A stretch of 50,432 bases of DNA from a virus. Below are positions 5,296 through 21,420 of this stretch, one piece after another. The position numbers and the translations under genes were made by a program. The notes under the pieces are model-generated. The model saw only the letters and a program-made list of their open reading frames with translations. It did no database searches and was not told the origin of the DNA. Each line of letters starts with the position of its first letter. Positions within the stretch are counted from its first letter, which is position 1. The stretch is taken from positions 1 to 50,432 of the IMG/VR virus record IMGVR_UViG_3300047388_000082; one strand, written 5' to 3'.

Positions 5296-5521
5296 CTATG
5301 TCCTCCTGTTCAGGTGTGTAGGGCACGGGCCCCTTTTCCAAGTACTCGGCTGCCTTACGGAGCCATCTCTCTGAGATCCACGAGACGAGCGTTCGGTTGC
5401 ACCTGTGACACAGGAGTCCCCGGACGTACATCTTGTAGTGGTCGTGATCCATGTCCAGCTTGCGGCGCTCGGACGGTGGACGGCCGCAGATTGCGCAGCC
5501 TCCGTCCTGATCAGCAAGCAT
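5288..5521 (-). CDS. Endonuclease VII-like HNH nuclease
   Basis: The sequence CAICGRPP, LDMDHDH, VRGLLCHRCN is the zinc-bound beta-beta-alpha metal fold of the T4 endonuclease VII family: two CxxC pairs and the DHDH active site. These enzymes resolve branched DNA before packaging. The first ATG (5521) cuts into the usual domain, because the in-frame codons just upstream encode the family's leading helix (HAEFLKGYRQFYDL). No ATG, GTG or TTG is available in that extension. Translation may therefore begin at a rare start codon or be coupled to the upstream gene. Confidence 0.8.
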   Translation of the reverse strand: MLADQDGGCAICGRPPSERRKLDMDHDHYKMYVRGLLCHRCNRTLVSWISERWLRKAAEYLEKGPVPYTPEQEDIVV

Positions 5522-5573
5522 CAGGTCATAGAACTGACGGTATCCCTTGAGAAACTCCGCATGCTTGGTCGGC

Positions 5574-6023
5574 CTACGCCTCGGGCGCGGAATCGAACAT
5601 GCTCGGCTCTAGACTTTCAGCCGCTCCATCGATAACGATTTCCCTGATCCACCAGCCACCAGAGACCTCCACGAAGGCCATGCACTCGTAGAACTTCTCA
5701 TTGAGGAAGACCACAGTCTCGTCGTCGACGAACTTGTAGCCGTTCTCGAGGAGCTCGGCGTGCGTGACCCACAGGCGGTCATTGACGTCACGGTAGATCT
5801 TGGCCTGACTATCGGCCCGATGCGGGTAAGGAGACGGAGGCCCACCGGCCTCGTTCATCTTGTCGTGCATCGCGACAAGCTGCGTCCAGTCCTCATCCGG
5901 AGCCACCTTGTTGTTCGCCCAGGTGTCCTCCTCGCAGTCAGCCACTCGGCAGACAGCGACGAACGGCGGGTAGTTGATCCCGCACATAGAGCACCTGCGT
6001 GACTTGATCGTGTGCTCGTTCAT
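5574..6023 (-). CDS. Hypothetical protein with N-terminal zinc ribbon, 149 aa
   Basis: The ATG at 6023 overlaps the stop of the 29-residue membrane peptide gene. Residues 11-31 (CSMCGINYPPFVAVCRVADC) form a zinc ribbon. The rest is mixed alpha/beta with a Trp-rich segment (VEVSGGWWIREIVIDG). It shares an operon with the primase-helicase and endonuclease VII-like genes. It carries one AGTCTAG read Ser-Leu near the C terminus. No family is recognised. Confidence 0.7.
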   Translation of the reverse strand: MNEHTIKSRRCSMCGINYPPFVAVCRVADCEEDTWANNKVAPDEDWTQLVAMHDKMNEAGGPPSPYPHRADSQAKIYRDVNDRLWVTHAELLENGYKFVDDETVVFLNEKFYECMAFVEVSGGWWIREIVIDGAAESLEPSMFDSAPEA

Positions 6024-6109
6024 ACCCAACTCCACACCAGGGCTACAAGAATCCCAATGCCGATCGCGGGAATGATGAGTGCCATGAGGCAGTCGATAGC
6101 GACTCCCAT
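6020..6109 (-). CDS. 29-residue single-pass membrane peptide
   Basis: The start and stop each overlap a neighbour by a few bases (TGATG and ATGA), which argues for a real gene. The product is almost entirely one hydrophobic helix (MALIIPAIGIGILVALVW). It should insert in the membrane. Its role is unknown; its place among replication genes is unusual for a holin. Confidence 0.55.
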   Translation of the reverse strand: MGVAIDCLMALIIPAIGIGILVALVWSWV

Positions 6110-6255
6110 CAGCCCTCCGTCCGGCGCCACTTGCGACACACGATGTAGACGCGGCCGTCAGTGACCTCGGCATGGAACGGCTTCCAGTTCTCCGGGAGTG
6201 CGATGTGCTCGCCTATCTTGTGAATGAACACCTGCACCTCGTGATAGCCGGTCAT
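6109..6255 (-). CDS. Hypothetical protein, 48 aa
   Basis: The ATG overlaps the primase-helicase TGA (ATGA). The small protein (MTGYHEVQVFIHKIGEHIAL ending CRKWRRTEG) alternates beta-like stretches and ends basic. Support comes from the overlap chain and good codon use. Function unknown. Confidence 0.6.
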   Translation of the reverse strand: MTGYHEVQVFIHKIGEHIALPENWKPFHAEVTDGRVYIVCRKWRRTEG

Positions 6256-7565
6256 CAGAAGAGCACCTCCGGAGCGAGCCCGCCTACGAGGCGAACCCCA
6301 TCCTCGGTGTCCTTGATGGTCACGTTGATCACGTCACCCACAGGCTTGCGGCGGGACTTGTAGACGGCCATCGAGAGCTGGCAGATGCCAACACCCCGGA
6401 CGTCGAAGCCCCAGTCCACGCCTGCGCCAATGTCGCCTGACCCTGCCGTCCTCTTGAAGGAGGAGTTGGAGTCACCCTTGTTGGCGTGGTGGATCATGAT
6501 CACCGCAGCCCCGGTCTCCCGAGCCAGCGGCTTAATCGAGTCGTTGAACAACTTGTTCATCTCACCGGCCGAGTTCTCGTCGCCTGTGTGGATGCGTCTC
6601 ATTGCGTCGATGACGATGAGGGTGGGCTCGAACTCGAGCGCCTCTTCGATGAGCTCGTCCACGTTGCGATCCAGCCGGATGTTTTCGTTGTTGATGTAGC
6701 GGATGTTCTTGGCGTCCTCGGTGGTCATGCCCAGCTTGATCAGCCGGTCGTAGACCAGATCCTCGGGGTTCTCCTCGTCGATGTAGAGCACGCGGCCCTG
6801 CTCGAGCACCTTCTGCCCGATCCAGTCGCCACGGCCCTGAGCGATCGAGAGGGCCAGGTCCATCGTGAGCCAGGACTTACCGAGGTTGGGATCGCCCATA
6901 AGCAGGTGGACATCCCCTCGGCACATCAGCCCCTCTACCAACCAGCGGACGGGCGGCGGCTCTGCCGTCAGATCGAGAAGCTTGAAGCGGCTCTCGCTGA
7001 TGCCCTTGTGCTGAGTGAGGAGGCGGAGTGTGTCCAGGTCGTAGGTGTCGAAGAACTCACAGACGTCCTTGACGTCACGGGGGAGACGAATGCGTTGTGC
7101 CTTCCCTCGAAGGCTTGCCCGGATTTCCCGGTACGCATTGTCCACCCGGCCGACGACGTTGTAGTCCTTGTCGTTGTCCAGGATGACGAACACACGGTCG
7201 GTCTGGAGGAACGCGGATGACATCTCGTCACGCCACGACTCAATCCCGGACAGGCCCAGCACGCCTACACCATCTGCGCCGGCCTCCTGCCACAACCGCA
7301 TCGTGTCCGTCTCTCCTTCCACCAGGAAGCACACGGGCTTGTTCGCGTCCTGGCTGTTGAAGAGGTCGGGCTTCTGACCAGCGGTGAAGAAGAACTCTCT
7401 CTCGCCGTGTGGAATCCCCTTCCGCACCTTCTCACCGTTCGTGTACGGGAGGACGACAGCGCCATCCGTTCGCACACTCACGTTGAAGTGGGTAAGGGTC
7501 TCCGGTGTGATGCTCCTCTCTTTGAGGAACCACTCTGCCACGGCGGGCATGAGTTCCGACACCAC
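6255..7565 (-). CDS. Primase-helicase (Toprim plus RecA-like ATPase)
   Basis: This 436-residue replication protein has two domains. Residues 75-150 are a Toprim domain with EGETD (83-87) and LDNDKD (129-134), the acidic metal sites used for primer synthesis. Residues 205-430 are a RecA/RepA-like ATPase with Walker A GDPNLGKS (224-231), Walker B LIVIDA (316-321) and IMIHHANK near 357. There is no N-terminal zinc finger, so priming activity is less sure than helicase activity. The GTG start shares a base with the upstream TAG. It would work with the split polymerase and SSB at the phage fork. Confidence 0.9.
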   Translation of the reverse strand: MVSELMPAVAEWFLKERSITPETLTHFNVSVRTDGAVVLPYTNGEKVRKGIPHGEREFFFTAGQKPDLFNSQDANKPVCFLVEGETDTMRLWQEAGADGVGVLGLSGIESWRDEMSSAFLQTDRVFVILDNDKDYNVVGRVDNAYREIRASLRGKAQRIRLPRDVKDVCEFFDTYDLDTLRLLTQHKGISESRFKLLDLTAEPPPVRWLVEGLMCRGDVHLLMGDPNLGKSWLTMDLALSIAQGRGDWIGQKVLEQGRVLYIDEENPEDLVYDRLIKLGMTTEDAKNIRYINNENIRLDRNVDELIEEALEFEPTLIVIDAMRRIHTGDENSAGEMNKLFNDSIKPLARETGAAVIMIHHANKGDSNSSFKRTAGSGDIGAGVDWGFDVRGVGICQLSMAVYKSRRKPVGDVINVTIKDTEDGVRLVGGLAPEVLF

Positions 7566-7798
7566 TAAATTGCCGTGCCTAGACTGCCGTTCTCGTTGAA
7601 GATCTCAACAAGATCGCTGATCGTGTTGATGAACTTCTCCTGCTCACGAATCAGAACACGAAGTCTTTTGTTCGAGTCCTTGAGATCTTCGTTCGCTCGC
7701 TTGAGTCGAACGAGCACCTCGAAAGGCGTCTCGAGCTCGTGCACTTCGTGATAACGAATCGTACGACACAGTTTGCACTGCGGCTCATACTCGCTCAT
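7565..7798 (-). CDS. Coiled-coil protein with CxxC N terminus, 77 aa
   Basis: The N-terminal CKLC is followed by a long helix with heptad spacing (EVLVRLKRANEDLKDSNKRL). The stop overlaps the primase-helicase GTG. It ends NGSLGTAI, where Ser-Leu is an AGTCTAG copy. It is perhaps a dimeric accessory of the helicase; that is only inferred from position. Confidence 0.65.
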   Translation of the reverse strand: MSEYEPQCKLCRTIRYHEVHELETPFEVLVRLKRANEDLKDSNKRLRVLIREQEKFINTISDLVEIFNENGSLGTAI

Positions 7799-8227
7799 TC
7801 ATACCCCCAGTCTGTTCAGTTGTCGGAGGGTCCTGGGCCAGTCCCCGTCGAAGCGGATGGCCTTGTCGTCGATGTATGCGACTGCGCTGAGCTTGCCCTC
7901 ACGGACGTGGGGGTAGCCAACGAAGATGTCGACCTCCTGCAGGTTCGCGTCGTCCAGCATACGCCGGATGTACGCGATCTCTCCCTCGGGGAGTTTGGGG
8001 TCGAGCTTCTCGTTCCAGTCGTAGAAGGAGACACCTACGATGCGGGTGCTCCAGATCATGACCGTGTACTTCTCGGCGAGCCTTGCCAGGGCCTTCTTAG
8101 CTCCAGGGAGCCAGTCACCCTGCTTCGGCCAGACGCCTTCCACACACGTGCCGTCCCAATCGACGGCTAGTACCGGCTTCCTCGCGATGGGATCCCTTTC
8201 TCTTGGAGCTCGAGCACGGGCTTCCAC
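7799..8227 (-). CDS. HAD-family hydrolase (phosphatase)
   Basis: The motif AVDWDGTCVE carries the DxDxT nucleophile/acid pair of haloacid dehalogenase hydrolases. WSTRIVG supplies the Ser/Thr-Arg of motif II, and AYIDDKAIRFDGDW the acidic motif IV. Relatives in phages are 3'-phosphatases or nucleotide phosphatases. The start is ambiguous: GTG at 8227 is given, an ATG exists at 8323, and an unusual ATC at 8188 with an AAAGGG site would put Met just before the first strand. The 5' part overlaps a zinc-ribbon gene in another frame. Confidence 0.75.
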   Translation of the reverse strand: MEARARAPRERDPIARKPVLAVDWDGTCVEGVWPKQGDWLPGAKKALARLAEKYTVMIWSTRIVGVSFYDWNEKLDPKLPEGEIAYIRRMLDDANLQEVDIFVGYPHVREGKLSAVAYIDDKAIRFDGDWPRTLRQLNRLGV

Positions 8228-8340
8228 TTCGTTCCGTCGTCGGGCAAGAATGTCGGATCGCACAGAGTGCAGATCTTCCAGTGACCGTACGGAACCATGT
8301 TCGGATTCCCGCATCTCAAGCATGTGTCACGGAGTACCAA
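8167..8340 (-). CDS. Zinc-ribbon protein, 57 aa, nested over the HAD gene start
   Basis: A TTG at 8340 follows AAGGA with five bases of spacing. The product has CLRCGNP and ICTLCDP, two CxxC knuckles 17 residues apart. This is a clean zinc ribbon, which a chance frame would be unlikely to give. It overlaps the end of the upstream gene by 14 bases and the HAD gene's leading region. Function unknown; nucleic-acid or protein binding is typical of such ribbons. Confidence 0.65.
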   Translation of the reverse strand: MVLRDTCLRCGNPNMVPYGHWKICTLCDPTFLPDDGTKWKPVLELQEKGIPSRGSRY

Positions 8341-8725
8341 GGCGATCCTTGACGTACTCCGCCCCGTTGAGGTTGAAGATGATCGCTGCAGCGTGGTCCT
8401 CGTCAGTGTCTCCCCTGAGCCACTGTTCCGAGTGTCGGGAGAAAGACTCCCTGAACCGCTCCAGCTCTTCCTGACCTGCGGCCAACATCCAGTTGCGCGG
8501 GTTGTGTTCCCACGCTCCCTTAGACAGGTGAACAGCCCAACGCTCGTACATCGGACCGTCCCTCGTCAGCAGGTAGTTGATCTTCCCCGTCGCCGAGCTC
8601 CGCTGCATGCCACCGTTGAACTTGACCAAGACCGCCTGGTTAGCAACCCAATCCCGCTCAGCTTGCTTTTCTTCCTCGGTCCATTCCGAGTACCTTTTCC
8701 CCCACGGTGAATTGAGGGTGTTCAT
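8327..8725 (-). CDS. dATP/dGTP diphosphohydrolase-like protein (DUF5664 type)
   Basis: Residues 55-130 contain MYERWAVHLSKGAWEHNPRNW, then a helix RFRESFSRHSEQW and GDTDEDHAAAIIFNLNG. This is the layout of the all-alpha phage family annotated as dGTP diphosphohydrolase N-terminal (PF18909/DUF5664), with RH and E/D-D-H metal and base contacts. Members degrade dNTPs and occur in phages with unusual nucleotide pools. No PurZ-like gene is present here, so I do not infer 2-aminoadenine DNA. The ATG is four bases into the upstream stop overlap. Confidence 0.6.
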   Translation of the reverse strand: MNTLNSPWGKRYSEWTEEEKQAERDWVANQAVLVKFNGGMQRSSATGKINYLLTRDGPMYERWAVHLSKGAWEHNPRNWMLAAGQEELERFRESFSRHSEQWLRGDTDEDHAAAIIFNLNGAEYVKDRLGTP

Positions 8726-9021
8726 CGAATGAACTCGCCGGCATACGCGGCGATCGACGGGCAGTAGTGCTCCGTGCTTGAGTCACCCGCCATCTCAGCG
8801 ATCCGACCGAGTGCGGTGCGGAACAACTTGCAAGTGTCGAGCGAGTCATTTGCGAGCTTGGCGTAGCACATGGTGACCTCGCCTACGTCCTCCGCTTCGT
8901 AGTCCGTCGCACACGTGCATTCATGCGCGAACCCGTACGTTTCGATCCAGAGGTCTCGGTTTTCGTTCATCCTCTGCGTTGACAGCCTCAGCTGTTCCAG
9001 CGTCTCCGAGTCTACCGGCAT
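8722..9021 (-). CDS. Hypothetical protein, 99 aa
   Basis: The ATG at 9021 follows AAGGAG with good spacing and lies inside the polymerase C-terminal gene, overlapping it by 101 bases in another frame. The product begins MPVDSETLEQLRLSTQRMNE and has a Cys cluster (ECTCATDYE). It looks helical. No family is recognised. Confidence 0.6.
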   Translation of the reverse strand: MPVDSETLEQLRLSTQRMNENRDLWIETYGFAHECTCATDYEAEDVGEVTMCYAKLANDSLDTCKLFRTALGRIAEMAGDSSTEHYCPSIAAYAGEFIR

Positions 9022-9820
9022 AAGTCTCCTTTTCAGCCCAGTTGGTTGTCGTCCACTCCATGTCAGCCTCGATCGGGACGAGCTCGCTGACCGGCGCGTA
9101 GTCCATGAGGATGGGGAGCTGCTCCTGTAGATAGGGCAGCTCGTCCATAACCGCGTCGATGGCGAACTCGTCGTGCACGTAGTTGACAAGGTGGGACTGC
9201 ATCTTCATGGCCTTGAGATGCGCATGGATCTTCACCATGGCAACGCGAGCAAGATCCCCGCCTGTGCCTTGGATGATGTAGTTCAACGCCTTGTGGAGCT
9301 CGAGCACACCTGTCTTCTCGTTCCGTGGCTCGAGGTGCCTACCGAACAGCGTCGTCAGGTAGCCACGCTCATCCCATCGGCGTTGGATTGCGCCCGGTCC
9401 CTCGCCCTGACGGAAGCCGCCGTTGCGGAAGGGTGGGTTGTTGAGCAGCTTGATCGACGGCCAGGTCGCGAAGAACTGCGCCTGCTGAGCCTGGGCAACT
9501 TTTAGGGGGATGCCTAGATTCGCAGCAGCCTTGCCTGCGCCGCCGCCGTAGATGGTCAGGAAGTTCCAGGTCTTGCCAATGTCCCGCTCATCGTCAGTGA
9601 TCACACTCTTGCCGAGGATGGCCTTGGCGGTTTCCTCATGCAGGTCGTCCCCGCGTCGGAACACTTCTGCCATGCCCTCGTCGCCAATGGTGTGGGCGAT
9701 GTAGAACGCGAGCAGCCTGTACTCCAGCTGCTTGTAGTCGAAGAAGAGCAGAGCATCCTGCTTGGGCACAAAGGCCCGCTTGATGACCTTATCTCCCTTC
9801 GGGATGTTCTGGAAGTTCAC
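8921..9820 (-). CDS. polA: DNA polymerase I, C-terminal part (fingers/palm) of a split enzyme
   Basis: The protein starts MNFQNIP, the conserved strand that normally follows the TGRxSS motif inside family A polymerases. It then has motif A DYKQLEYRL (Asp28), motif B with Arg79, Lys83 and Tyr91-Gly92, and motif C VHDE (215-218). All polymerase catalytic residues are therefore here, while thumb and exonuclease lie in a separate gene 556 bp upstream. The GTG start overlaps the TAG of the gene before it. The last 45 residues lie beyond the usual family end and overlap another gene. Confidence 0.92.
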   Translation of the reverse strand: MNFQNIPKGDKVIKRAFVPKQDALLFFDYKQLEYRLLAFYIAHTIGDEGMAEVFRRGDDLHEETAKAILGKSVITDDERDIGKTWNFLTIYGGGAGKAAANLGIPLKVAQAQQAQFFATWPSIKLLNNPPFRNGGFRQGEGPGAIQRRWDERGYLTTLFGRHLEPRNEKTGVLELHKALNYIIQGTGGDLARVAMVKIHAHLKAMKMQSHLVNYVHDEFAIDAVMDELPYLQEQLPILMDYAPVSELVPIEADMEWTTTNWAEKETYAGRLGDAGTAEAVNAEDERKPRPLDRNVRVRA

Positions 9821-10077
9821 TAACGAGCGGCGATCAGCTGAAAGATCGCGACGTCCAACTCACAAGCCAACTGCTTGGCCTCATCAAGCGTCAGGTCTTT
9901 CACGAAGTCCTTGTAGCCACCTCCGTAAGACCGATCGTCGAAGATCGCCTTCGGGAACGTCAGCTTGATCTTCTTCGTGTGAACACTCGCGACCCCCACG
10001 GCAGAACGCGATGGCTCTGTTAGCGGAATCGCTCCCTTCATCGAGAGCTCCTTCTTCTTTTTCTTCTTGAGGCCCAT
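9820..10077 (-). CDS. Hypothetical protein between the two polymerase genes, 85 aa
   Basis: The ATG overlaps the TAA of the upstream gene and the TAG overlaps the GTG of the polymerase C part. The N terminus is strongly basic (MGLKKKKKKELSMKG), followed by beta strands (KKIKLTFPKAIFDDRSYGGG) and a helix (LDEAKQLACELDVAIFQL). It has no homing-endonuclease motif. It may bind DNA or the polymerase; this is inference from its location only. Confidence 0.7.
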   Translation of the reverse strand: MGLKKKKKKELSMKGAIPLTEPSRSAVGVASVHTKKIKLTFPKAIFDDRSYGGGYKDFVKDLTLDEAKQLACELDVAIFQLIAAR

Positions 10078-10376
10078 TACGGCCGCACGTTCTTGAGGCT
10101 GCTGGCAAAGGTCGGCCGCTTCTCCAACGTGGAGACACGGGCGTCCAGATCGTTCGCAGCGTCAACCAGCTCGGAGATCCCGAGGTAGAGCATCTCCAGG
10201 ATGTCGGCTAGACTCGGCTCCTCGACTTCCGAAGCCTGCTCAGCTAGATCGAGCGCCTCGTAGGCGTCGTCGAGCTCCTGTACTGCAGGTGCCTCGTAGT
10301 CAGTCACGTCGCCGGGGTCAGCGTCCACCAGGCTCAACGTGCGGACAGGCGTGTTGTCGATCGGTGTTTCGTCCAC
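10077..10376 (-). CDS. Acidic coiled-coil protein between the two polymerase genes, 99 aa
   Basis: The GTG start shares a base with the TAG of the polymerase N part. The protein is very acidic (LVDADPGDVTDYEAPAVQEL) and ends in a helix with heptad character (ISELVDAANDLDARVSTLEK). One AGTCTAG is read Ser-Leu. It could tether the split polymerase halves; no homology supports this. Confidence 0.7.
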   Translation of the reverse strand: MDETPIDNTPVRTLSLVDADPGDVTDYEAPAVQELDDAYEALDLAEQASEVEEPSLADILEMLYLGISELVDAANDLDARVSTLEKRPTFASSLKNVRP

Positions 10377-11380
10377 TATCCCTCACTCTCTCCGGACGAC
10401 ATGCGCCCGGTCTTGGTTCCGTGTTGGCGGAAGTTCGGATGGATGATCCCGTCCTCCTGCTCATTCAGCATCGGCTGCAGGTAGGTGCCGTGCATCTTTC
10501 GTGTTGAGCGTAGGTGCAGGATCTCTCGGGCTAGGTCGTGGTCGACCTGAGACAACGTGTCCTTGTCTGTTCCTTCGAGGGTGATGCCCTCTTCCTCGAA
10601 CCTCGCAAGGATCTGCTGCCAACTACCGGGGTTGAACTCCTCCGTTGTTAGATCGCGGATACGGAGCTCGGTGCGCACGGCTTCTTTTCCGTACGCCTTG
10701 GCGGTGGCGGAGAGGTAGTCCATATCCAACGCCATGCCAGCACCCTCCATGTCTAGGAGGGCCAGGGTGACCAGCTTCTCGTGGGCATACAAAGCCACTA
10801 GTTCCGGCCAGTCCTGCAGCTTCGGGTGGAAGAGGTCAAAGAGTCCGAGGGTCAGGATCACGTCCTGGATCGCGTAGGGGATGACGACCTCACGTGGAAG
10901 CACGTGGTAGCCGTCCTCCTTCCGCAGCTTGAGCTTGCGTCGTACTGCGGCAAGCTCCTCGTCCTCCGTAGTCTCAACCCCGAGGTGTGTGCGGGCCAGA
11001 CTCTTGAGTCCCTTCTTCTGGTGCGCGTCTAGCAGGTGAGCCAACGTCTCCGTATCTTCAAGCCGATCGGCGGTGATCGCCTCTCGATCCAAGATGCCGG
11101 CCTGCACGAGCTTCTGTAGGTCGAACTTGATGTTGTGTCCGATCCACGTAGGCGTTGCTTGCAGGATCGCGCTCACCATCCACGAGCTGTCGTAGTCCAC
11201 CAGCTCGAAGTAGTGCCCTACTACGTCCCCGTCATCGCGGTCCCACGCGATCGTCGTACAGAAAGGAGTGTCGAAGTAGCCCAGTCCAGTGGTCTCTGTA
11301 TCGACCGCAATGATGTTGGGTTGGTCATTCAACCAGGCGTCGAACCCGGTCTCAGCTAAGGCCTGCAGCGAGCAGTCCAC
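10376..11380 (-). CDS. polA: DNA polymerase I, N-terminal part (3'-5' exonuclease and thumb) of a split enzyme
   Basis: In this 334-residue protein the exonuclease motifs are intact: Exo I Asp27-x-Glu29 (VDTETTG), Exo II GHNIKFD (81-87) and Exo III Tyr169-x3-Asp173. A thumb-like helical region follows, and the frame ends just after HGTKTGRMSS, the motif that precedes NxQNIP in intact polymerases. The remaining domain is encoded by a separate gene downstream. The GTG at 11380 was chosen because GAGGAG lies seven bases before it. Together the halves (334 plus 299 residues) match Klenow-type enzymes in size. Confidence 0.92.
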   Translation of the reverse strand: MDCSLQALAETGFDAWLNDQPNIIAVDTETTGLGYFDTPFCTTIAWDRDDGDVVGHYFELVDYDSSWMVSAILQATPTWIGHNIKFDLQKLVQAGILDREAITADRLEDTETLAHLLDAHQKKGLKSLARTHLGVETTEDEELAAVRRKLKLRKEDGYHVLPREVVIPYAIQDVILTLGLFDLFHPKLQDWPELVALYAHEKLVTLALLDMEGAGMALDMDYLSATAKAYGKEAVRTELRIRDLTTEEFNPGSWQQILARFEEEGITLEGTDKDTLSQVDHDLAREILHLRSTRKMHGTYLQPMLNEQEDGIIHPNFRQHGTKTGRMSSGESEG

Positions 11381-12017
11381 GGAAGAACTCCTCGTCTCCG
11401 GTCTTGAGGTCATCCAGCGTGACGGAGTAGGCATCCGCAATAGCTTGCGGGTCAGCCTCTACTCCACCGTCGATGGCGAGCTGCGTAACACGTGCCTTGA
11501 GGTCCGCAAGCGGATCGGCGTTGCGGCCGTCGTGCTCCGGTGCCTCCTTGTCGTACAGGCAGAGTCCGAACTGGTCCCCGAGCGATGCGAATGCACGCTT
11601 GAGGGCGTCGGTCACGGCCTCCTTGCTGGCGAGCTCGTGCGGGGTAATGCGGCTCATGTTGTACTCCTGAGCATCCCCGTAGCCCACGTCGCTGTAGGTG
11701 GCGTACCCTCTGGTGTCCCGGAAGATCGAACCATCCAGGGGATACGGTCCTACAGACACTTCGACGATGGCCCTGTATCCAACGCGCACCCCGGTCTTAC
11801 CGTTGGAGTTGGTGAACTCCTCTTCACCTAGACAAGACAGATCCGCCACCCGATACCCCCAGCCTCCATAGCCGAAGATCTCGTTCGCACGTTGCTTGAC
11901 GTCCCAGCCCTCCAGGTAGGAGAACTCTTTACCTCCGCCGCCCGACCTCTTGCTGACACGCTGCGGATCCAGCGGAGCGTCGAGTGCTTCGGAGATACCT
12001 TGATCAAATGCTGACAA
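11352..12017 (-). CDS. Rad52-like single-strand annealing protein
   Basis: Residues 33-60 (YLEGWDVKQRANEIFGYGGW) and 135-165 (KEAVTDALKRAFASLGDQFG followed by LCLYDK) are the diagnostic segments of phage Rad52/22-type annealing proteins. They form rings on single-stranded DNA and promote strand annealing in recombination-dependent replication. The TTG at 12017 is preceded by AAGGAGG with six bases between. It overlaps the nuclease gene upstream, making a nuclease plus annealase pair like lambda exo-beta. Confidence 0.88.
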   Translation of the reverse strand: MSAFDQGISEALDAPLDPQRVSKRSGGGGKEFSYLEGWDVKQRANEIFGYGGWGYRVADLSCLGEEEFTNSNGKTGVRVGYRAIVEVSVGPYPLDGSIFRDTRGYATYSDVGYGDAQEYNMSRITPHELASKEAVTDALKRAFASLGDQFGLCLYDKEAPEHDGRNADPLADLKARVTQLAIDGGVEADPQAIADAYSVTLDDLKTGDEEFFRGLLAAGLS

Positions 12018-12963
12018 TCGTCACCTCCTTGCTGCGGTAGTCCTTCTCGCTCGGAGTGATGAGCGCGAGCTCCTCCGAGTCCTTGTAGGGCACATACTCC
12101 TGGTCGAGGTTGTAGTGCCCAATCTTGTTGATGCCCTGCGAGCTGCACGCACACAGCGTGTCGTCGTAGGGGCAGTACTGCGCTGACCAGTGCGGGTAGA
12201 GCTTGAGGTCGAAGACCTTGGTCTTGTCATTCCAGCTCAACTTCTGCTCACGCGGCATGATCGGGGCGAGCTCGGGCGTCACGAAGCACGCCTCAGCCGT
12301 GTAGCTCCCGCTCAAGAACGCCTGGCCCGTGTCCGGGTGGCCCCAGACTAGACTCTCGAGGTACCGAGCCGTTGCCATCCATCTCGCATCCATCTGGCCG
12401 TAGACGGACTCCCTAGACAGGGGAGTGCATTCCGCCTCGATGGGTGCCGTGACGTCGCTGCCACCACTGGAAGTGGGCAGGTAGAACACGGAGAACCCGT
12501 TGACCAGCGGGAAGCCGGCGTCGTAAAACGCATACCAGTACGCCGAGCACTGCCACATGTGCTCCGTCTTGGCACCATCCCTCGCGATCCACCGGAGACC
12601 TTCTCCCCGCATGGTCTTGAGGTCGCCCAGCACGAAGCCACCCTTGTCAGCGTCCCAGAAGATCAGGTCTGCTGTCCCGCTCCAACCCACATTCATCCAG
12701 CGGTTGAGCTTGACCTCCTGCATGAACGGGATGCCCTGGTCGACCAAGGTCGAGAAGAGGCGGCGATGCCACATGGTCCCGTTCTCCATCGCCATGGACT
12801 CAGCGATTCCGCGAGTCACACTTTCAGGCGCCCCCGCCAGACGTAGCTGCGTATGACGCAGGGGGCCGATCAGATCCGAACTTGCGTGGAGTAGCCCATC
12901 CTCCGGTCGTCTGGAAGATGCGATCTCTTTCTCCACTATGGAAGCTAGATCTACTGGAAGCAT
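12004..12963 (-). CDS. Cas4/RecB-like PD-(D/E)XK exonuclease
   Basis: The RecB-family motifs are visible: His66 (MWHRRL), Asp99 (GTADLIFW), Asp114-x-Lys116 (GDLKT) and motif QxxxY at Gln138. A Cys cluster near the C terminus (CPYDDTLCAC, residues 264-273) resembles the iron-sulphur anchor of Cas4/AddB nucleases, though I see only three of the usual four Cys close together. It should resect DNA ends for the adjacent Rad52-like protein. The ATG overlaps the XRE gene stop. Confidence 0.85.
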   Translation of the reverse strand: MLPVDLASIVEKEIASSRRPEDGLLHASSDLIGPLRHTQLRLAGAPESVTRGIAESMAMENGTMWHRRLFSTLVDQGIPFMQEVKLNRWMNVGWSGTADLIFWDADKGGFVLGDLKTMRGEGLRWIARDGAKTEHMWQCSAYWYAFYDAGFPLVNGFSVFYLPTSSGGSDVTAPIEAECTPLSRESVYGQMDARWMATARYLESLVWGHPDTGQAFLSGSYTAEACFVTPELAPIMPREQKLSWNDKTKVFDLKLYPHWSAQYCPYDDTLCACSSQGINKIGHYNLDQEYVPYKDSEELALITPSEKDYRSKEVTIVSI

Positions 12964-13769: not shown

Positions 13770-14435
13770 CTACGCGGTGAGCGCAGCCGTGACGGCCCCG
13801 ACGCCTCCGCGCATCCCGTCCGGAATGCGATTGGGTGCGAGCTCGACCGCGATGTCGAACACGGCGATCAGTTCTTCCTTGCTCTCACAGCGGGAGTCGT
13901 TCCAGTCCTCCACGCTGTCGAACTGGTAGCCCTGTCCACTCTGGCTGGCGTACTCCTCGAAGGACACAGGATCACCCAGCTCCTCCTCGGGGCCCGAGTA
14001 GAGAGCGCGGTCATCCAGATACCACTTGTAGTCATCTTCGAGAGAATCCCGCTCCCACTCAGTGAGACCACGATTAGCCTCGAACTGCATGATCGCCTCT
14101 TCCACATACGGGCGGACCACGTTCATCTCGGTCGTGTCGAGGAGGAACTGTCCCGAGTCAGCCTCGTCGTAGTTGCCGACGATCTTGATGGGGCACTCGA
14201 TCCCCTTACTCAGGAGGGCGAGCTCGAGGAAGCCTAGAGCACAGGCAGACTTGACCGCCTGGACAGTCGGGATCTCCTTCCCGTCCACGACGATGGTGCT
14301 GGTACCGAAGTTGCCATTAGCTCCGCCTGCGCGGCCACCAGTGGCGTTCTCTCCGAGGTGGTGGAACGTGTGCCTGACCCACTCCTTCTCGTCGATCAGG
14401 GAGCGGGCAATACGAAGGATGCCTTTTGGAGTCAT
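13770..14435 (-). CDS. DUF6197-like hypothetical protein, 221 aa
   Basis: The ATG follows AAAGGA. Conserved-looking points are MTPKGILRIARSLIDEKEWV at the start, ACALGFLELALLSKG in the middle, and a C-terminal WNDSRCESKEELIAVFDIAV, the pattern of the DUF6197 family found in actinobacteria and their phages. It lies directly beside the ATP-grasp ligase gene and may be part of the ligation module. It could also be a separate host-interaction protein. No catalytic role is known. Confidence 0.65.
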   Translation of the reverse strand: MTPKGILRIARSLIDEKEWVRHTFHHLGENATGGRAGGANGNFGTSTIVVDGKEIPTVQAVKSACALGFLELALLSKGIECPIKIVGNYDEADSGQFLLDTTEMNVVRPYVEEAIMQFEANRGLTEWERDSLEDDYKWYLDDRALYSGPEEELGDPVSFEEYASQSGQGYQFDSVEDWNDSRCESKEELIAVFDIAVELAPNRIPDGMRGGVGAVTAALTA

Positions 14436-14446
14436 GTGATTCCTTT

Positions 14447-15268
14447 CTAGAACTCGATGAGGTTGTCGGTGTCGTCCTCGGTGTCGCCGTCATCCGTAGA
14501 TGTCAAGCGATCGAGGACGTTGAAGTTCACGTCCAAGCATGTACCAGGACGCTCGGTCTCGATCAGGCGGGCGATCCCGCCCAGCATGGCGGCGGCTGAC
14601 CTAGGGGCCAAGGCCGGCGCGGTGTTCACTTCCAGCACGTAGGTGTGGCCGTCGTCTCCTACAACGAGATCGACAGCCCCGAAGTGCAGCCCGTGAGCCT
14701 TGACCGCTGCTATGGCCAGGGACTCCTGGAACGCGTTGAGACGCGTCCTGGGAGACACGAAGGTGTGTCCGTGCTCGTAGTTGCGAATCCAAGGCGTGTA
14801 CACCGTGTCATCCGTCAGAACCTTCTCTGACACACGGACGCACTCATCCCCGACCACACGAGCCCGGTACTCACGGGCGACAGGAACGTACTCCACGAAG
14901 AAGTCCGCCGATGGGTACATGGCGGCGTCTCCAAGCTGCATACACAGACCGATGTCCTGGCCCCGCGTATGGTTGATGCTGCGGGACAAGAAGGGCGCAC
15001 GCAGGTTCCCAGGTACCTCCGAGAAGCGAGGGACAACAATCCCCCGCTGTGACATACGGAGAAAGCTGTTCAGCTTGTGGGTAGCCCGCTCAATGGCGTT
15101 CGCTGGGTTGATGGTCAGCTCAGCCTGGTACGGGACACTTCCTGTTGCTCCCCAGCGGATCAAGACGTCTTGCCTATCGCTGGGTACTTCCGTGCCGTGG
15201 GGGATGCCCAGCGCCTCGCCGAGCACCTCCCCAGTAGGCCGCGTGGTGCGGTGGTAGAGGAAGAACAT
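14447..15268 (-). CDS. ATP-grasp carboxylate-amine ligase
   Basis: This 273-residue protein has ATP-grasp features: a lone RWG at 38-40, an HKLNSFLRMSQRGIVVP helix, the lid-type strand FFVEYVPVAREYRARVVGDE, and the metal-binding segment GLHFGAVDLVVGDDGHTYVLEVNTAP with its Glu-x-Asn. Family members activate a carboxylate as acyl phosphate and join it to an amine. It heads a compact set with a glutamine amidotransferase and two amidoligases, so it probably acts in one pathway making or attaching a peptide-like compound. The tail is highly acidic. Confidence 0.85.
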   Translation of the reverse strand: MFFLYHRTTRPTGEVLGEALGIPHGTEVPSDRQDVLIRWGATGSVPYQAELTINPANAIERATHKLNSFLRMSQRGIVVPRFSEVPGNLRAPFLSRSINHTRGQDIGLCMQLGDAAMYPSADFFVEYVPVAREYRARVVGDECVRVSEKVLTDDTVYTPWIRNYEHGHTFVSPRTRLNAFQESLAIAAVKAHGLHFGAVDLVVGDDGHTYVLEVNTAPALAPRSAAAMLGGIARLIETERPGTCLDVNFNVLDRLTSTDDGDTEDDTDNLIEF

Positions 15269-15426
15269 CAGCAGCTACACCGTTCAGGTGAGCAGGCAGG
15301 GCAACGGCTGTGAATTGCTTCGCTCCTGTATTCCAGGATCGTCTGCTGCTGCTCTGCGATGACGGCTTCGAGCTTGGTGACCTTCTCCTCACAGTCGCAC
15401 CCGAACTCCGGATGACAGAAGGCCAT
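15268..15426 (-). CDS. Cys-rich small protein, 52 aa
   Basis: The ATG overlaps the amidotransferase TAA. Cys clusters at both ends (CHPEFGCDC and CPACSPERCSC) flank a helix (VTKLEAVIAEQQQTILEYRS). A zinc-binding hairpin is likely. It is wedged between ATP-grasp and amidotransferase genes; it might be a structural partner or even a substrate peptide, but there is no proof. Confidence 0.6.
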   Translation of the reverse strand: MAFCHPEFGCDCEEKVTKLEAVIAEQQQTILEYRSEAIHSRCPACSPERCSC

Positions 15427-16865
15427 TAGTGGAACACCTGCCTCATCTTGGACAAGAACCCGCCGAGGCCCTCGCCTTCGAGCTCGTCCTCCCAGGCATT
15501 GACCTCCTTCTCGATGTCGGCGTAAGCCGTGTCGCACTCCTCTCTGGCCTCAGACAGCCAGGGGTCGTTGTTGATGACGAACACCTCTGCACGGAACAGC
15601 ACCCACTCGACGAAGCCCACGTTGTAGGTCGTCTTCTCAGCCACCTTGGCGAGGATGAAGTTGTGCCTCTCCATGTTGTCGCTTTGCAGCGCATCGTTGA
15701 GCACTGTTGCCATATCCGCGTCGGGATACTCGCTCCCCGCCACCAGTGCGAGCTGCGGCTTCGGACGCGGAGTACCAATCACGTTCGCGGCCGGTGCCAT
15801 GCAGTCGGGACAGAACATCAGCGACTCGTAGACCTCTTCCAGCTCCGTGTATGACGTCCAATCCCCGCAGGAGTCACACTGGATGTAAGAGTCGATCAGG
15901 TCGGTATCCTCTGACACCACTTCCATGAACTCGGCACAACCGCAGCGCGGTCCTGCACTGTAGGAAGCGCCTGTGTCATCAGAGGTCTTCTTGCGGGACA
16001 GGCACTCACCGTCGTAGTACTGGGTGGCGTGCCAGAACCGAGAGTGACCACACTCACACACGGCGTTGCGCTCCGAGGGTGAGAGGACGGTGTTGCAGGA
16101 CGCTCCCGTCCACTGGCTCCCGGTGTTGTAGTAGGTGCGCTCCTTGACCTTGAACTCAAGCAGCTCCCACTCGTCACCAGTGACGTAGACGATCTGACCC
16201 GCCTTGAACTCCTGGAACTTGTCGTTGCTCGGCGGAGTGCCGAACACCTTGGCCCATGCGTTCTGGATGGCGCCCATCTCAGAGGCCCACACCAGGAAGT
16301 TGGCGTTCTCGTGGAAGATCAGGGGCGAGCTTTCACCCTTGGCGAGCACGAGCATGTCGGGGAAGGCCACCGGGTTTATGGCCGCGACGGCGAAGCCGCC
16401 CTCGAGCTCTTGCAGCGCCAGGTGCACCTTGTCGATCCCGTGCTTCTGAATCAGCGCCGGGATGATCTCGGAGTCAACCTGCCCTAGACGAGCGATCCCC
16501 GTCTCTGCGAACAGTTCGTGATCGTTGCTGATGTGACCGTTGTGGGTCACGAAGGTCGTACCGGAGAGGACAGGGTGATTGTTGACGTTCTCCTCAGGAC
16601 GCCCCTGCGTCGCGTAGCGGGTGTGGAGGATGACTGACCGGATGTCGTCACCCTGGATCTTCGGCCGGATCTTGATAAAGTCCGACGCTTTCAGCGGCTC
16701 CTTCGACAGGGCCACCTTCTTGCCACCGACAGATGCGTAGGCCACGCCTGTGGAATCCGTACCTCGGTGCTCGATTGACAACAGCAGCTCATCGACGAAA
16801 CGATTGAGCTGACGCCCGTCTAGACTTCCGGGCTTCTTGATGTGGATACCAGCGATTCCGCACAT
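15426..16865 (-). CDS. Class II (Ntn) glutamine amidotransferase with Cys-rich insert
   Basis: The start MCGIAGI gives the catalytic Cys2 after Met removal. HTRYATQGRP, NNHPV, THNGHISN and the Asp-Ser-Glu (VDSEII) are the glutamine-binding signature of the PurF/GlmS glutaminase fold, covering residues 1-235. It releases ammonia from glutamine for a partner ligase. Residues about 300-400 add several Cys/His pairs (CECGHSRFWH, CGC, CDSCGDW, CPDC), probably zinc ribbons, followed by a helical tail. The ATG is set by TAATG overlap with amidoligase 1. Length is 479 residues, well over a bare glutaminase. Confidence 0.9.
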   Translation of the reverse strand: MCGIAGIHIKKPGSLDGRQLNRFVDELLLSIEHRGTDSTGVAYASVGGKKVALSKEPLKASDFIKIRPKIQGDDIRSVILHTRYATQGRPEENVNNHPVLSGTTFVTHNGHISNDHELFAETGIARLGQVDSEIIPALIQKHGIDKVHLALQELEGGFAVAAINPVAFPDMLVLAKGESSPLIFHENANFLVWASEMGAIQNAWAKVFGTPPSNDKFQEFKAGQIVYVTGDEWELLEFKVKERTYYNTGSQWTGASCNTVLSPSERNAVCECGHSRFWHATQYYDGECLSRKKTSDDTGASYSAGPRCGCAEFMEVVSEDTDLIDSYIQCDSCGDWTSYTELEEVYESLMFCPDCMAPAANVIGTPRPKPQLALVAGSEYPDADMATVLNDALQSDNMERHNFILAKVAEKTTYNVGFVEWVLFRAEVFVINNDPWLSEAREECDTAYADIEKEVNAWEDELEGEGLGGFLSKMRQVFH

Positions 16866-18634
16866 TAGGCGATTGCCACCTCCTCGGTGGTTGTGATGTT
16901 GAGTGCACGAATGAAGTCCTCGCCAACGGCGTTGACCTCGCTGTTCTCGATGCAGTAGATGAGGTTGAGCCTCTCGCCCTTGGTGAGCGGGAGCTCGTTG
17001 AAGATGAAGCTCAGACCGTCCTGCCATCCCAAGATGAGGGCAGCCTGTGCCTCGTCGTTGATGTCGTCGAAGTGCTTGTTGACGAACGCGTGATCGTCGA
17101 ACTTGTCAGCGTCGACCTCTTGCTCCGACGTGGCCCAGGCGACCATCGCCTGACAGAGGGCCATGTACGCGTGGATCTTGTGCATGTTGGCCGACGTGTT
17201 GAACACGCGGAACTCGAACGTGCACTTCCCTAGACGACACTCGCACTCGTCCCACGAGTCGTAGCGGACAGCACCACAGGTGCAGTTGCGAGTGAAGCTG
17301 CTGATGTAGTTCTGGAACGAGAGGGCGTTGTACCGATCCATCTCGTTGTCCATTTGCCGGCCGAAGGCCAGCTTGGTCTTGGCTCCTTTGGGCGTGGGCT
17401 GGCAGTAGTGCAGCCCGTTTGTGACCGCCCTATGCATGGGCCACTTGGCGGCACCGAGGCGGAAGATCAGATCCTCCATGAAGCCCCAGATGACCCCCAG
17501 ACGCCATGCGTGCGCGATCCCGGCCTTCTCTGCCCCGACGTGGATATGCAGCCCACACCGGAGGTCGAGCCAAACCTCCTTCGACTTGATCTGTGCCTGG
17601 ATGATCTGCAACGCCTGCCGAAGCTGGCGGATGTCCGTGCGGTTGGCGATGTTCAGCGGCGGGGAGACAAGCTCCCAGTCCACCGAGCTATCGCGCTCGA
17701 GCGACCAGAAGCGGGAATCCGAACCCATGCTGGTCTGCTCGTGATAGCTACCGAGCTCTGCGTGCGGGGTGAGTCCTCGCGCGAAGAGGGCTGCGCCTAG
17801 ACTGCGCCAGCTTCCCCCGCCTTCGATCTCGATACCGACACGCCGGACGTTCTCACGTCCTGGGATGAGCGGGATGATGAGGTCGGCTTCGAGGACGTTG
17901 GTTTCTTCCTCGACCTCGCGGTTCTCTATCGAGGGCAGCTCAGCGTTTCTGTTCGGGTAGCAGTCCTCGCAGTACCCATCTTCGAGGTAGCTCGTCTCGT
18001 AGTCGCATCCGGTACAGCGACCAGGAATACAGTCCTCACACACCGCTCCGCCGTGGTAGTCGGAGTAGATGGTGAGTTCCCGCACAGTGCCCTCAGAACA
18101 AGAAGCACAACGGACGCGCTCCCCGCCTGCATGTGCAGCACAGAAGCGATGCGGGTACGCAGTTGGAGCTGCACACTCGACACAGCTCACGGTGTGAACC
18201 GGACAGACAATCCACTCCTCATCCGTGAAGAGAGGCGATCCCTCAGTTCCGTACCTACCGCACCAGTAGCAACCGAGGCTTGGCGCGTCCCAAGGAGTGT
18301 CTTGATCGGCGCTGAGGTTGCTGAACACCACCCTGTTCGGCGGCGGTGCAGGGCTAGGTGGTGTTGGTGTGTTGTTCGAGTTCAGATACGAGCTGAGTAT
18401 CTCGCTGTAGTTGGCGATCTGGTGGGTCGGGGCGTCATCGTTCTCTACCCAGCCCTCAGGCTGAGGTTGCGGTTGCCTGTACCGCTGCTCACAGTCGATG
18501 CACCCCGGCTGTCCGCAGTCGGCGTCACCGGGTCTTTCTCCAATGTGCGATTCGCTATGCCCCTCCCACAGCGTGCAGAGAGGCTGCGAGCAAGGCCCAG
18601 GAGGGACTTGCTGTTCGTCCGTAGTTTCAGGCAT
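16865..18634 (-). CDS. Amidoligase 1 with large N-terminal zinc-ribbon array
   Basis: The C-terminal half (about 260-560) has the glutamine-synthetase/GCS2-like amidoligase motifs: RRVGIEIEGGG, WELVSPPL, CGLHIHVGA, and FEFRVFNTSANMHKIHAYMA. The family joins amines to carboxylates using ATP. The first 235 residues carry many CxxC pairs (CYWCG, CPVH, CVEC, CASC, CEDC, CTGC, CEDC), a tandem treble-clef or ribbon array unusual in length, after a Pro-rich linker. The gene feeds directly into the amidotransferase by TAATG. Substrate unknown: cell-wall or protein side-chain ligation are family-level guesses. Confidence 0.85.
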   Translation of the reverse strand: MPETTDEQQVPPGPCSQPLCTLWEGHSESHIGERPGDADCGQPGCIDCEQRYRQPQPQPEGWVENDDAPTHQIANYSEILSSYLNSNNTPTPPSPAPPPNRVVFSNLSADQDTPWDAPSLGCYWCGRYGTEGSPLFTDEEWIVCPVHTVSCVECAAPTAYPHRFCAAHAGGERVRCASCSEGTVRELTIYSDYHGGAVCEDCIPGRCTGCDYETSYLEDGYCEDCYPNRNAELPSIENREVEEETNVLEADLIIPLIPGRENVRRVGIEIEGGGSWRSLGAALFARGLTPHAELGSYHEQTSMGSDSRFWSLERDSSVDWELVSPPLNIANRTDIRQLRQALQIIQAQIKSKEVWLDLRCGLHIHVGAEKAGIAHAWRLGVIWGFMEDLIFRLGAAKWPMHRAVTNGLHYCQPTPKGAKTKLAFGRQMDNEMDRYNALSFQNYISSFTRNCTCGAVRYDSWDECECRLGKCTFEFRVFNTSANMHKIHAYMALCQAMVAWATSEQEVDADKFDDHAFVNKHFDDINDEAQAALILGWQDGLSFIFNELPLTKGERLNLIYCIENSEVNAVGEDFIRALNITTTEEVAIA

Positions 18635-18642
18635 TCATCCTC

Positions 18643-18783
18643 CTAGTGGATGCCAAGCAGTTGAGGTACGAGGTTGAGCACCGGGACTTTCTCCCAGATG
18701 GCGTGCTCCAGCGGAAAAGCCACGCTGTTGGCGATGCACCAGACGCAGATGCGCCGGCACTTGTGATTACCACCCGCTGCCAT
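18643..18783 (-). CDS. Small CxxxC/CxxC protein, 46 aa
   Basis: The ATG lies inside the end of amidoligase 2. The sequence (HKCRRICVWCIANSVAFPLE) has three Cys and a mildly hydrophobic C-terminal helix. It sits between the two amidoligases. Function unknown; coding status rests on position and composition. Confidence 0.5.
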   Translation of the reverse strand: MAAGGNHKCRRICVWCIANSVAFPLEHAIWEKVPVLNLVPQLLGIH

Positions 18784-19588
18784 TGCAGTCCTCGCAGCAG
18801 TAGCCGTCGTCGCCGTCACCGTAGTAGTCGTCATCCCCGGCGTACTCATGTCCTTCCGGGAAGACAGGGTTCGCCACCTTGTCCATCAGGACTAGACTGG
18901 CGACCTTCGCGGTCTTGGTACGTGAGAGCAGCTGGGCGCTATCGGCACAGGTCAGGATCGTCTTGCGCTTCTTGACCGTCTCCAGGAACGCCTGCCCGAA
19001 GTACACCCAGGCGGCTGCGTGGTTGAAGTTGAGCGTGCCCTCGTGCTGACGAATCTCGATCGTGCCGTGTTCGTCAAGGGACGAGATATTCAGAGCAGCG
19101 AACCGCTCTGAGAAGTACTTGGGCTTGTTCTTGTAGGCGTCGTCACCGTCTCTGTAGATGGAGCCTGACTTGATCTGGGCGATCTTGTGCTCGTTCCAGT
19201 AGTCCGCGTAGCAGGCCCAGTAGTTCCCCCGCCTGTACTCGGACACGAACTTGCTGATGTGCTCACGGTTGGCGCTCCACGTCTCCACCAACTTCATGGT
19301 GAGGTCGTCATCGTCGACGAACTCAGGAGCGTCGTGGTGGACGTGCAGGCCGTCCTCGGCGGTCACAGTGGCGTCGTTATCGACAAGCAGCTCCATGACC
19401 TTCTTGAGCTCGAGCAGGCCCTTGGCCCCCCGCAGGATGGGGGACGGAATCTCTGTGCCACTACCGTCCTGATGGATGTACATGTCTGCCCAGGACTTGA
19501 AGCCGTTGTCCCTGAGCAACTCCTTCGCACGCACAGGGCCACCAGGAAGGTCACACTCGATCTCGACTCCGAATGCTCTAGCGCGCAT
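18767..19588 (-). CDS. Amidoligase 2
   Basis: This is a 273-residue compact amidoligase: FGVEIECDL (6-14), GTEIPSPIL (44-52), GLHVHHD (80-86) and GTIEIRQHEGTLNFNHAAAW near 175-195 form the GS/GCS-like active site. The C terminus is acidic and ends in YCCEDCNGSGW, a DnaJ-type zinc knuckle. It is distinct in sequence from amidoligase 1, so the pathway may make two successive amide bonds or use a heteromer. One AGTCTAG is read Ser-Leu. Confidence 0.85.
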   Translation of the reverse strand: MRARAFGVEIECDLPGGPVRAKELLRDNGFKSWADMYIHQDGSGTEIPSPILRGAKGLLELKKVMELLVDNDATVTAEDGLHVHHDAPEFVDDDDLTMKLVETWSANREHISKFVSEYRRGNYWACYADYWNEHKIAQIKSGSIYRDGDDAYKNKPKYFSERFAALNISSLDEHGTIEIRQHEGTLNFNHAAAWVYFGQAFLETVKKRKTILTCADSAQLLSRTKTAKVASLVLMDKVANPVFPEGHEYAGDDDYYGDGDDGYCCEDCNGSGW

Positions 19589-20790: not shown

Positions 20791-21420
20791 TTAGCCACAC
20801 GAGCCGTGGTACTGCGCGGGCAGGCTGTTGTGCCACCGCTGCGCCCAATCTTGGAGGGCTGCGAGGGCAGGGTTGGGGACTGTCGTGGTGACAGCCACGA
20901 GGGTGCTGAACCGAACCTTGCGAACCACCTTGACCACACGCTTGTACGTGGTCAGTGGGACGGTGGCGGCGTAGCCGAAGAACTGGACTGCGTACTGCTT
21001 GACCAGCCCAAGGGCTGTGCAGTCTGTGATCGCTTCGTCGCTGATTCCACGCTGGTGCACTGACTCGTGGATGAGCGTCTTGATGGCGATGGAGGCGTAG
21101 ACGACACCAACGTCGTAACCAGCGTCCAGTGCCTCGAGCGCGTCACAGGCACGTGGCCCGATGTAGACCACAGGCGTGCCGATGTTCGTGAACCCGTCAG
21201 TGTCCACGGTGACTCCGTGCTGCCCTTCTAGACTCACCCATTCGAGGTCTGAGTCCACACAGTCCACCGTGACGTTGTGACCAGCGACCATCGAGGCCAC
21301 ATGATCCAGGTACGCATAGTCGGTACCACCGACAGCGGGCTGCGTACTCCTTGTGAACATCGCCGTCACCGCAAACACCACGGTGGAGAGGATGAACAAG
21401 ATGGTGAGCTTGCGAAGCAT
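20791..21420 (-). CDS. Exported or membrane-anchored HExxH metalloprotein
   Basis: Residues 1-22 (MLRKLTILFILSTVVFAVTA) are a signal peptide or anchor. Residues 116-134 read LIHESVHQRGISDEAITDC, with HExxH zinc ligands His118, Glu119 and His122 and a nearby acidic third ligand (Glu129 or Asp133), as in gluzincin-like peptidases. It should act outside the membrane. Its place beside amidoligase genes could mean processing of a surface or peptide product; that is speculative. Length 209 residues. Confidence 0.7.
   Translation of the reverse strand: MLRKLTILFILSTVVFAVTAMFTRSTQPAVGGTDYAYLDHVASMVAGHNVTVDCVDSDLEWVSLEGQHGVTVDTDGFTNIGTPVVYIGPRACDALEALDAGYDVGVVYASIAIKTLIHESVHQRGISDEAITDCTALGLVKQYAVQFFGYAATVPLTTYKRVVKVVRKVRFSTLVAVTTTVPNPALAALQDWAQRWHNSLPAQYHGSCG

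Follow-up and report, generated by a model that had tools for sequence, protein, structure and literature searches.

A divergent amidoligase, glutamine amidotransferase and ATP-grasp cassette in the early region of an uncultured phage

The early regions of several phages, among them phiEco32, RIO-1/PSA-HP1, the LUZ24-like phages and the Zobellviridae PA11/CW02, contain a 'peptidoglycan modification module' in which genes for an Amidoligase_2 protein, a class II glutamine amidotransferase (GAT) and a RimK-like ATP-grasp ligase neighbour one another beside replication genes. In its canonical form the module further includes a gene for a COOH-NH2 ligase, and a class I GAT and a gamma-glutamyl cyclotransferase are frequent additions. 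In RIO-1-like phages it has been described as a seven-gene peptidoglycan cassette meant to prevent superinfection (PMC5498523), an idea that has been traced to Iyer 2009 on phiEco32 (PMC10580990), and another report reads the module as peptidoglycan-modifying and suggests that the altered wall could ease lysis (PMC11945000). These published roles in the cell wall and in superinfection are predictions. Here we analyse a cassette sharing the same three neighbouring early genes in the IMG/VR record IMGVR_UViG_3300047388_000082, from an uncultured phage; the window, that is the whole stretch of DNA analysed, is 50.4 kb long. The cassette runs from 19588 to 14447 on the minus strand, and encodes two Amidoligase_2 ligases (AmlA and AmlB), a class II GAT and a RimK-like ATP-grasp ligase.

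Gene content and conserved residues of the cassette

The genes lie in the order AmlA, a 46-aa open reading frame (ORF), AmlB, GAT, a 52-aa ORF and ATP-grasp. One-base overlaps join AmlB to GAT (TAATG), GAT to the 52-aa ORF (TAATG) and the 52-aa ORF to the ATP-grasp gene (TGATG), and these junctions show that the genes from AmlB to ATP-grasp are, on their layout, translationally coupled. An original prediction, made from this DNA alone, had placed all four enzyme types between 14447 and 19588; each was located there by family match. The same prediction had singled out loss of catalytic residues on alignment as the observation that would count against it, and we found the catalytic motifs intact in all four enzymes.

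Against PF12224, AmlA and AmlB each reach 62 bits (cut-off 22). AmlA (18767..19588, minus strand, 273 aa; E=9.7e-17) is a GS-fold (glutamine synthetase-fold) ligase, and AmlB (16865..18634, minus strand, 589 aa; E=6.9e-17 over residues 264-498) has a Cys-rich N-terminus and is preceded by AGGAGG just upstream. The GS-type E-x-E, H-x-H and E-x-R motifs are present in each. Among 50 Amidoligase_2 sequences, residues E46, H82, H84, E178 and R180 of AmlA are invariant and E9/E11 nearly so; the AmlB counterparts of the AmlA catalytic set are E269, E271, E321, H363, H365, E474 and R476. We take the conserved Glu/His residues and the E-x-R to correspond to the metal-binding residues and E-x-R motif of glutamine synthetase. 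AlphaFold2 modelled AmlA with a predicted local distance difference test score (pLDDT) of 78 overall and above 90 in the core, and AmlB, from 13 sequences, with about 90 in the core and below 50 at the N-terminus. For both models Foldseek placed YbdK nearest, followed by glutamine synthetases, gamma-glutamylmethylamide synthetase, Dop and PafA. In VIA-align comparisons AmlA matched the Streptomyces coelicolor glutamine synthetase (Z 13.0, root-mean-square deviation (rmsd) 3.2, 178 residues), and AmlB matched the YbdK-type ligase 1tt4 (Z 13.5, rmsd 4.0, 246 residues) as well as Dop and plant glutamate-cysteine ligase (Z 12.8), with structural neighbours including glutamine synthetase spanning Z 12-13.5. 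The models thus show a predicted GS-type fold, and no substrate can be read from them because the Z values of glutamine synthetase, glutamate-cysteine ligase, YbdK and Dop tie within about 1-2.

AmlB differs from AmlA in two Cys-rich parts. Residues 122-226 (17957..18271, minus strand) form a CxxC-rich putative zinc-finger region, identified by direct reading in a part of the model with low pLDDT; N-terminal CxxC clusters of this type are found in the window and in the loci L006, L008, L009 and L089, and are absent from the AmlB homologues of L010, L087 and L110. Residues 451-466 (17237..17284, minus strand) align as a C-x-C-G-A...C-x-C knuckle directly before E474-x-R476, with C453, G454, A455, C464 and C466 invariant in alignment A4. 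This pattern also occurs in L087, L089 and L110, varies in spacing in L010, and could not be scored in L093, where the sequence ends before the knuckle position. The AmlB-type ligases of nine loci form one clade (support 0.991) and AmlA-type ligases another (0.952). A recent tandem duplication was therefore rejected, and AmlA and AmlB are, on these trees, old paralogues. We have seen the knuckle-bearing clade only in uncultured phages: patterned scans found no member in cultured phages or GTDB genomes, although short patterns can miss members, and the only matches to AmlB in a genome scan were distant amidoligases of Clostridia, which pointed to no host. Those hits are Clostridia contigs from metagenome-assembled genomes (L102-L109) with distant Amidoligase_2 proteins, one contig carrying two adjacent copies.

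The GAT gene (15426..16865, minus strand, 479 aa) encodes a GlmS-like class II glutaminase domain with a C-terminal Cys-rich extension and no synthase domain (PF13522, E=1.4e-15, 57.9 bits and over the cut-off; 2.6e-17 against PDB 1xff). Its true start is the ATG at 16865, giving MCGIAG with Cys2, and not the upstream ATG at 17027. Cys2, Arg83, Asn109-Gly110 and Asp131 are retained as in GlmS; Cys2 is missing from two alignment rows, O4 and L008, which started downstream of it.

The ATP-grasp ligase (14447..15268, minus strand, 273 aa; PHROG_2599, E=2e-26) has an acidic C-terminal tail and is divergent, falling under the Pfam cut-offs. A 34-member family profile compared with solved structures placed RimK nearest (5zct, 1.5e-17), then cyanophycin synthase and D-Ala-D-Ala ligase. 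Among NCBIfam models MptN (1.6e-12) and rimK_fam (4e-11) matched below their cut-offs, and TIGR00768 (RimK alpha-L-glutamate ligase) gave 42.7 bits against a curated cut-off of 143.4. Membership of the R2K clade was rejected, R2K_3 scoring 23.8 bits against a cut-off of 26.3 and more family members matching RimK. E133-x-R135, D200, E213 and N215 are conserved, comprising an E-x-N motif and basic residues.

Neither of the small ORFs, nor the Cys-rich parts of AmlB and GAT, featured in the original prediction. The 46-aa Cys-rich ORF between AmlA and AmlB (18643..18783, minus strand, from ORF reading) has a stop that overlaps the AGGAGG preceding AmlB, and shares 42% identity with the ORF that occupies the corresponding place in L006. 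A hidden Markov model (HMM) built from these two sequences detected a third copy in L009 (1.7e-7 among 41,323 ORFs), downstream of ATP-grasp. All three phages carry AmlA; L008, L010 and L089 lack both AmlA and the ORF, and L110 and L124 have AmlA with no copy of the ORF seen there. The product may be a small zinc protein, or else serve as a partner or as a substrate. The 52-aa Cys-rich ORF (15268..15426, minus strand), a putative gene on the strength of its TAATG/TGATG overlaps with the GAT stop and ATP-grasp start, had no relative in a homologue search. A conserved small peptide at this position was rejected, as L008 and L009 have small Cys-containing ORFs there but these are dissimilar.

Recurrence of the module and distribution of the AmlB sub-type

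Single-protein scans of viral contigs found no relatives, but alignment-based queries detected at least 483 relatives of the ATP-grasp ligase in IMG/VR. The best 80 of these loci were surveyed, 79 of which hold a BLASTP relative, and tallies were made with HMMs for six module families; these HMMs were derived from annotated phages and went through one iteration. In 55 loci the ATP-grasp gene is flanked by at least 6 kb on either side. Among these, a GAT lay within 6.5 kb in 53 and an Amidoligase_2 in 42, and 200 of 204 module genes were on the ATP-grasp strand; COOH-NH2 ligase was present in 44 loci, The association is thus more than chance, although the loci were selected by ATP-grasp similarity and include many related phages, and their counts do not stand for independent events. 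A further scan, made with AmlA relatives, yielded many phages with amidoligase and GAT or amidoligase and cyclotransferase but no ATP-grasp nearby. Across all loci the commonest ordered neighbours were amidoligase then GAT (57), with amidoligase then ATP-grasp 39 times and amidoligase then cyclotransferase 28 times; amidoligase adjoins cyclotransferase 34 times. Separately, pairs of Amidoligase_2 and gamma-glutamyl cyclotransferase without GAT or ATP-grasp are common in other phages (L110-L189), and may be a two-gene system of their own. L007 is a 61-kb virus record with acidic proteins and is perhaps haloarchaeal; its 5500-12500 region encodes an ATP-grasp that shares 45% identity with that of the window, along with two class II GATs and GS-like ORFs.

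The window lacks several canonical partners. Neither Pfam nor a phage-built HMM detected a COOH-NH2 ligase (PF14395) in the window, and the same Pfam search finds one in four canonical loci; the cyclotransferase HMM matched about 30 loci, none in the window, and an HMM search for class I GAT likewise found none there. To speak of a complete set, as the original prediction did, is therefore too strong. A small sub-type without COOH-NH2 ligase comprises the window, L006, L008, L009, L010 and L089. The capsid and primase of the window are common to L008, L009 and L010, and its terminase to L089, L093 and L124. The 102-kb L006 record has no match to the capsid, terminase or primase, yet holds a sister AmlB (support 0.97) with a close GAT and ATP-grasp. 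This pattern is suggestive of transfer of the cassette between phages, with the proviso that L006 may be a fragment. The AmlB and GAT trees and, more weakly, the ATP-grasp tree (0.66) give matching clades, which indicates that the cassette holds together.

Proposed chemistry and its alternatives

The reading of this locus as an amide-bond module of the kind predicted by comparative genomics is upheld, and we consider a phage early-region operon making amide (isopeptide) bonds to be, on balance, the best overall explanation. Greater confidence attaches to the biochemistry itself, which is likely to be glutamine-dependent amide ligation; that glutamine-derived ammonia is used we infer from the presence of a GlmS-like glutaminase domain next to the amidoligase. 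In this scheme AmlB and AmlA would convert a glutamate-type carboxylate to an acyl phosphate, much as glutamine synthetase and glutamate-cysteine ligase do, and couple the activated group to ammonia or to an amine. By splitting glutamine, the GAT, encoded directly after AmlB, would supply AmlB with ammonia, and the RimK-like ATP-grasp would then place an alpha-linked amino acid on a free carboxylate. Zinc binding is probable for the Cys-rich parts of AmlB and GAT, which probably also hold the complex or its substrate. Gamma-glutamyl chemistry is suggested by analogy, because amidoligases and cyclotransferases are frequent neighbours in related loci. The likeliest target, and the least certain step, would be the peptide stem of the peptidoglycan precursor, as proposed for the canonical module, and the altered wall would then act against other phages or serve lysis; that the target is the host cell wall we put forward only tentatively.

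Several observations weigh against this explanation. A limited literature search found no experiment on activity, substrate or phenotype. Since no GAT–amidoligase fusion was found among the surveyed ORFs, adjacency is the argument for ammonia channelling, and absence of the COOH-NH2 ligase and cyclotransferase means that the identity of the canonical product cannot be transferred to this cassette. No sequence feature links the cassette specifically to the wall. Zinc binding is read from cysteine spacing, and the N-terminus of AmlB is modelled at low confidence.

Instead, the ligases could tag a protein of the host or the phage with glutamate or a peptide, as RimK acts on ribosomal protein S6 and PafA acts with Pup, and so redirect host functions early in infection. 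RimK is closest to the ATP-grasp, the AmlB model matches the depupylase Dop with PafA also among the Foldseek hits, the cassette adjoins replication genes, and Burroughs 2015 proposed host-protein modification for phage R2K ATP-grasps. However, similarity to the GS fold is a property of GS-type ligases in general and does not favour PafA or Dop among them, we found no Pup-like tag ending in a C-terminal Glu/Gln, and the R2K_3 match is below its cut-off, so that we regard protein tagging as doubtful. Synthesis of a free gamma-glutamyl or peptide-like metabolite (a signal, cofactor or inhibitor), with no macromolecule modified, would fit the YbdK- and glutamate-cysteine-ligase-like fold of AmlB and the occurrence of cyclotransferases and class I GATs in related modules. 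In known pathways the substrates of such enzymes are small gamma-glutamyl compounds. This phage has neither of them, however, and none of the annotated neighbours was recognised as a transporter, carrier protein or resistance gene, leaving a small-molecule product unlikely.

A ribosomal peptide resembling the graspetides, with the 46- or 52-aa Cys-rich ORF as substrate of the ATP-grasp and amidoligases, appears very improbable. The 46-aa ORF is kept in three phages that also have AmlA, the 52-aa ORF is coupled to ATP-grasp, and the ATP-grasp weakly matches graspetide maturases, albeit below cut-off. Yet the 46-aa ORF was not found in L008, L010 and L089, where AmlB, GAT and ATP-grasp are present, the 52-aa ORF has no homologue, and inspection of both by eye revealed no repeated core motif. 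We give similarly little credence to a distinct conjugation system in which the AmlB zinc-knuckle ligase, glutaminase and ATP-grasp would act on the 46-aa CxxC peptide as a dedicated substrate, producing a modified peptide or tag, and which would be passed between unrelated phages.

Genomic setting and comparison with known systems

Alongside a tyrosine integrase, the window encodes a primase-helicase and a family-A DNA polymerase that is split, as well as terminase, portal and capsid proteins and one that is internal-virion-like. The capsid shares about 30% identity with those of Arthrobacter, Microbacterium and Cellulosimicrobium phages, and on this similarity the host is likely to be an actinobacterium. 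A near-identity DNA search of cultured phages gave no match to the window, no RNA families or tRNAs were found, and PADLOC defence-system models did not match the four enzymes. Genes for DNA base hypermodification, considered as a further candidate, were not recognised among the larger window proteins searched. The cassette lies ahead of the replication genes, inside the early/replication gene cluster and not in a lysogeny locus, and so the suggestion that it acts during lysogeny finds no support.

The next gene downstream (13770..14435, minus strand) encodes a DUF6197 protein (PF19698, 2.2e-6) whose membership of the module is doubtful. Close to the cassette in three related phages is a small, predicted exported or membrane-anchored protein (window 20791-21420, minus strand; L010 11636-12226; L089 6799-7299); it has an HExxH-like motif followed by an acidic/Cys motif, DEAxTDC, and is a possible metallopeptidase with no family match. 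The DNA polymerase is divided into two ORFs (10376-11440 and 8921-9820, minus strand) that correspond to successive segments of PHROG_17 and are separated by two small ORFs (8921-11440 in all), a layout that recurs in L008, L009 and L010. Also on the minus strand are a protein with a dATP/dGTP diphosphohydrolase N-terminal domain (8327-8725; PF18909), a helix-turn-helix–metallophosphoesterase fusion (3475-4506), and a protein at 7799-8323 for which the PHROG name phosphoheptose isomerase may mislead, given a weak NCBIfam match to HAD-phosphatase.

The canonical module, present on hundreds of viral contigs as judged from the IMG/VR scan, has been called peptidoglycan-modifying or superinfection-blocking for over a decade, and we found no tested product in our limited search of the literature. 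The minimal, rearranged version described here reduces the core to amidoligase, GAT and ATP-grasp. It also suggests that the working unit is the amidoligase–GAT pair, and provides conserved residues as mutation targets.

We conclude that the cassette is a divergent version of the peptidoglycan modification module, to which it adds a second amidoligase of a separate clade and Cys-rich additions. Arthrobacter phages (Laroyevirus, Ottawa) have an AmlA-like amidoligase (28-32% identity) followed by a GAT at about 30-35%, but these pairs lack an adjacent ATP-grasp or AmlB and have a cyclotransferase gene upstream. The RimK/MptN alpha-L-glutamate ligases are the best solved or named relatives of the ATP-grasp, which differs in falling under the family cut-offs, in its operon context and in its acidic tail. 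The GAT shares with GlmS a class II domain with an N-terminal Cys, but has no sugar isomerase domains and has its own Cys-rich extension. AmlA and AmlB resemble YbdK, glutamate-cysteine ligase, glutamine synthetase and PafA/Dop in predicted fold and in the arrangement of the active site, at 7-17% identity in structure alignments, and AmlB is set apart by the Cys-knuckle before its E-x-R. The kind of system is thus already known; what is new is a rearranged sub-type with the AmlB knuckle clade and a small conserved ORF.

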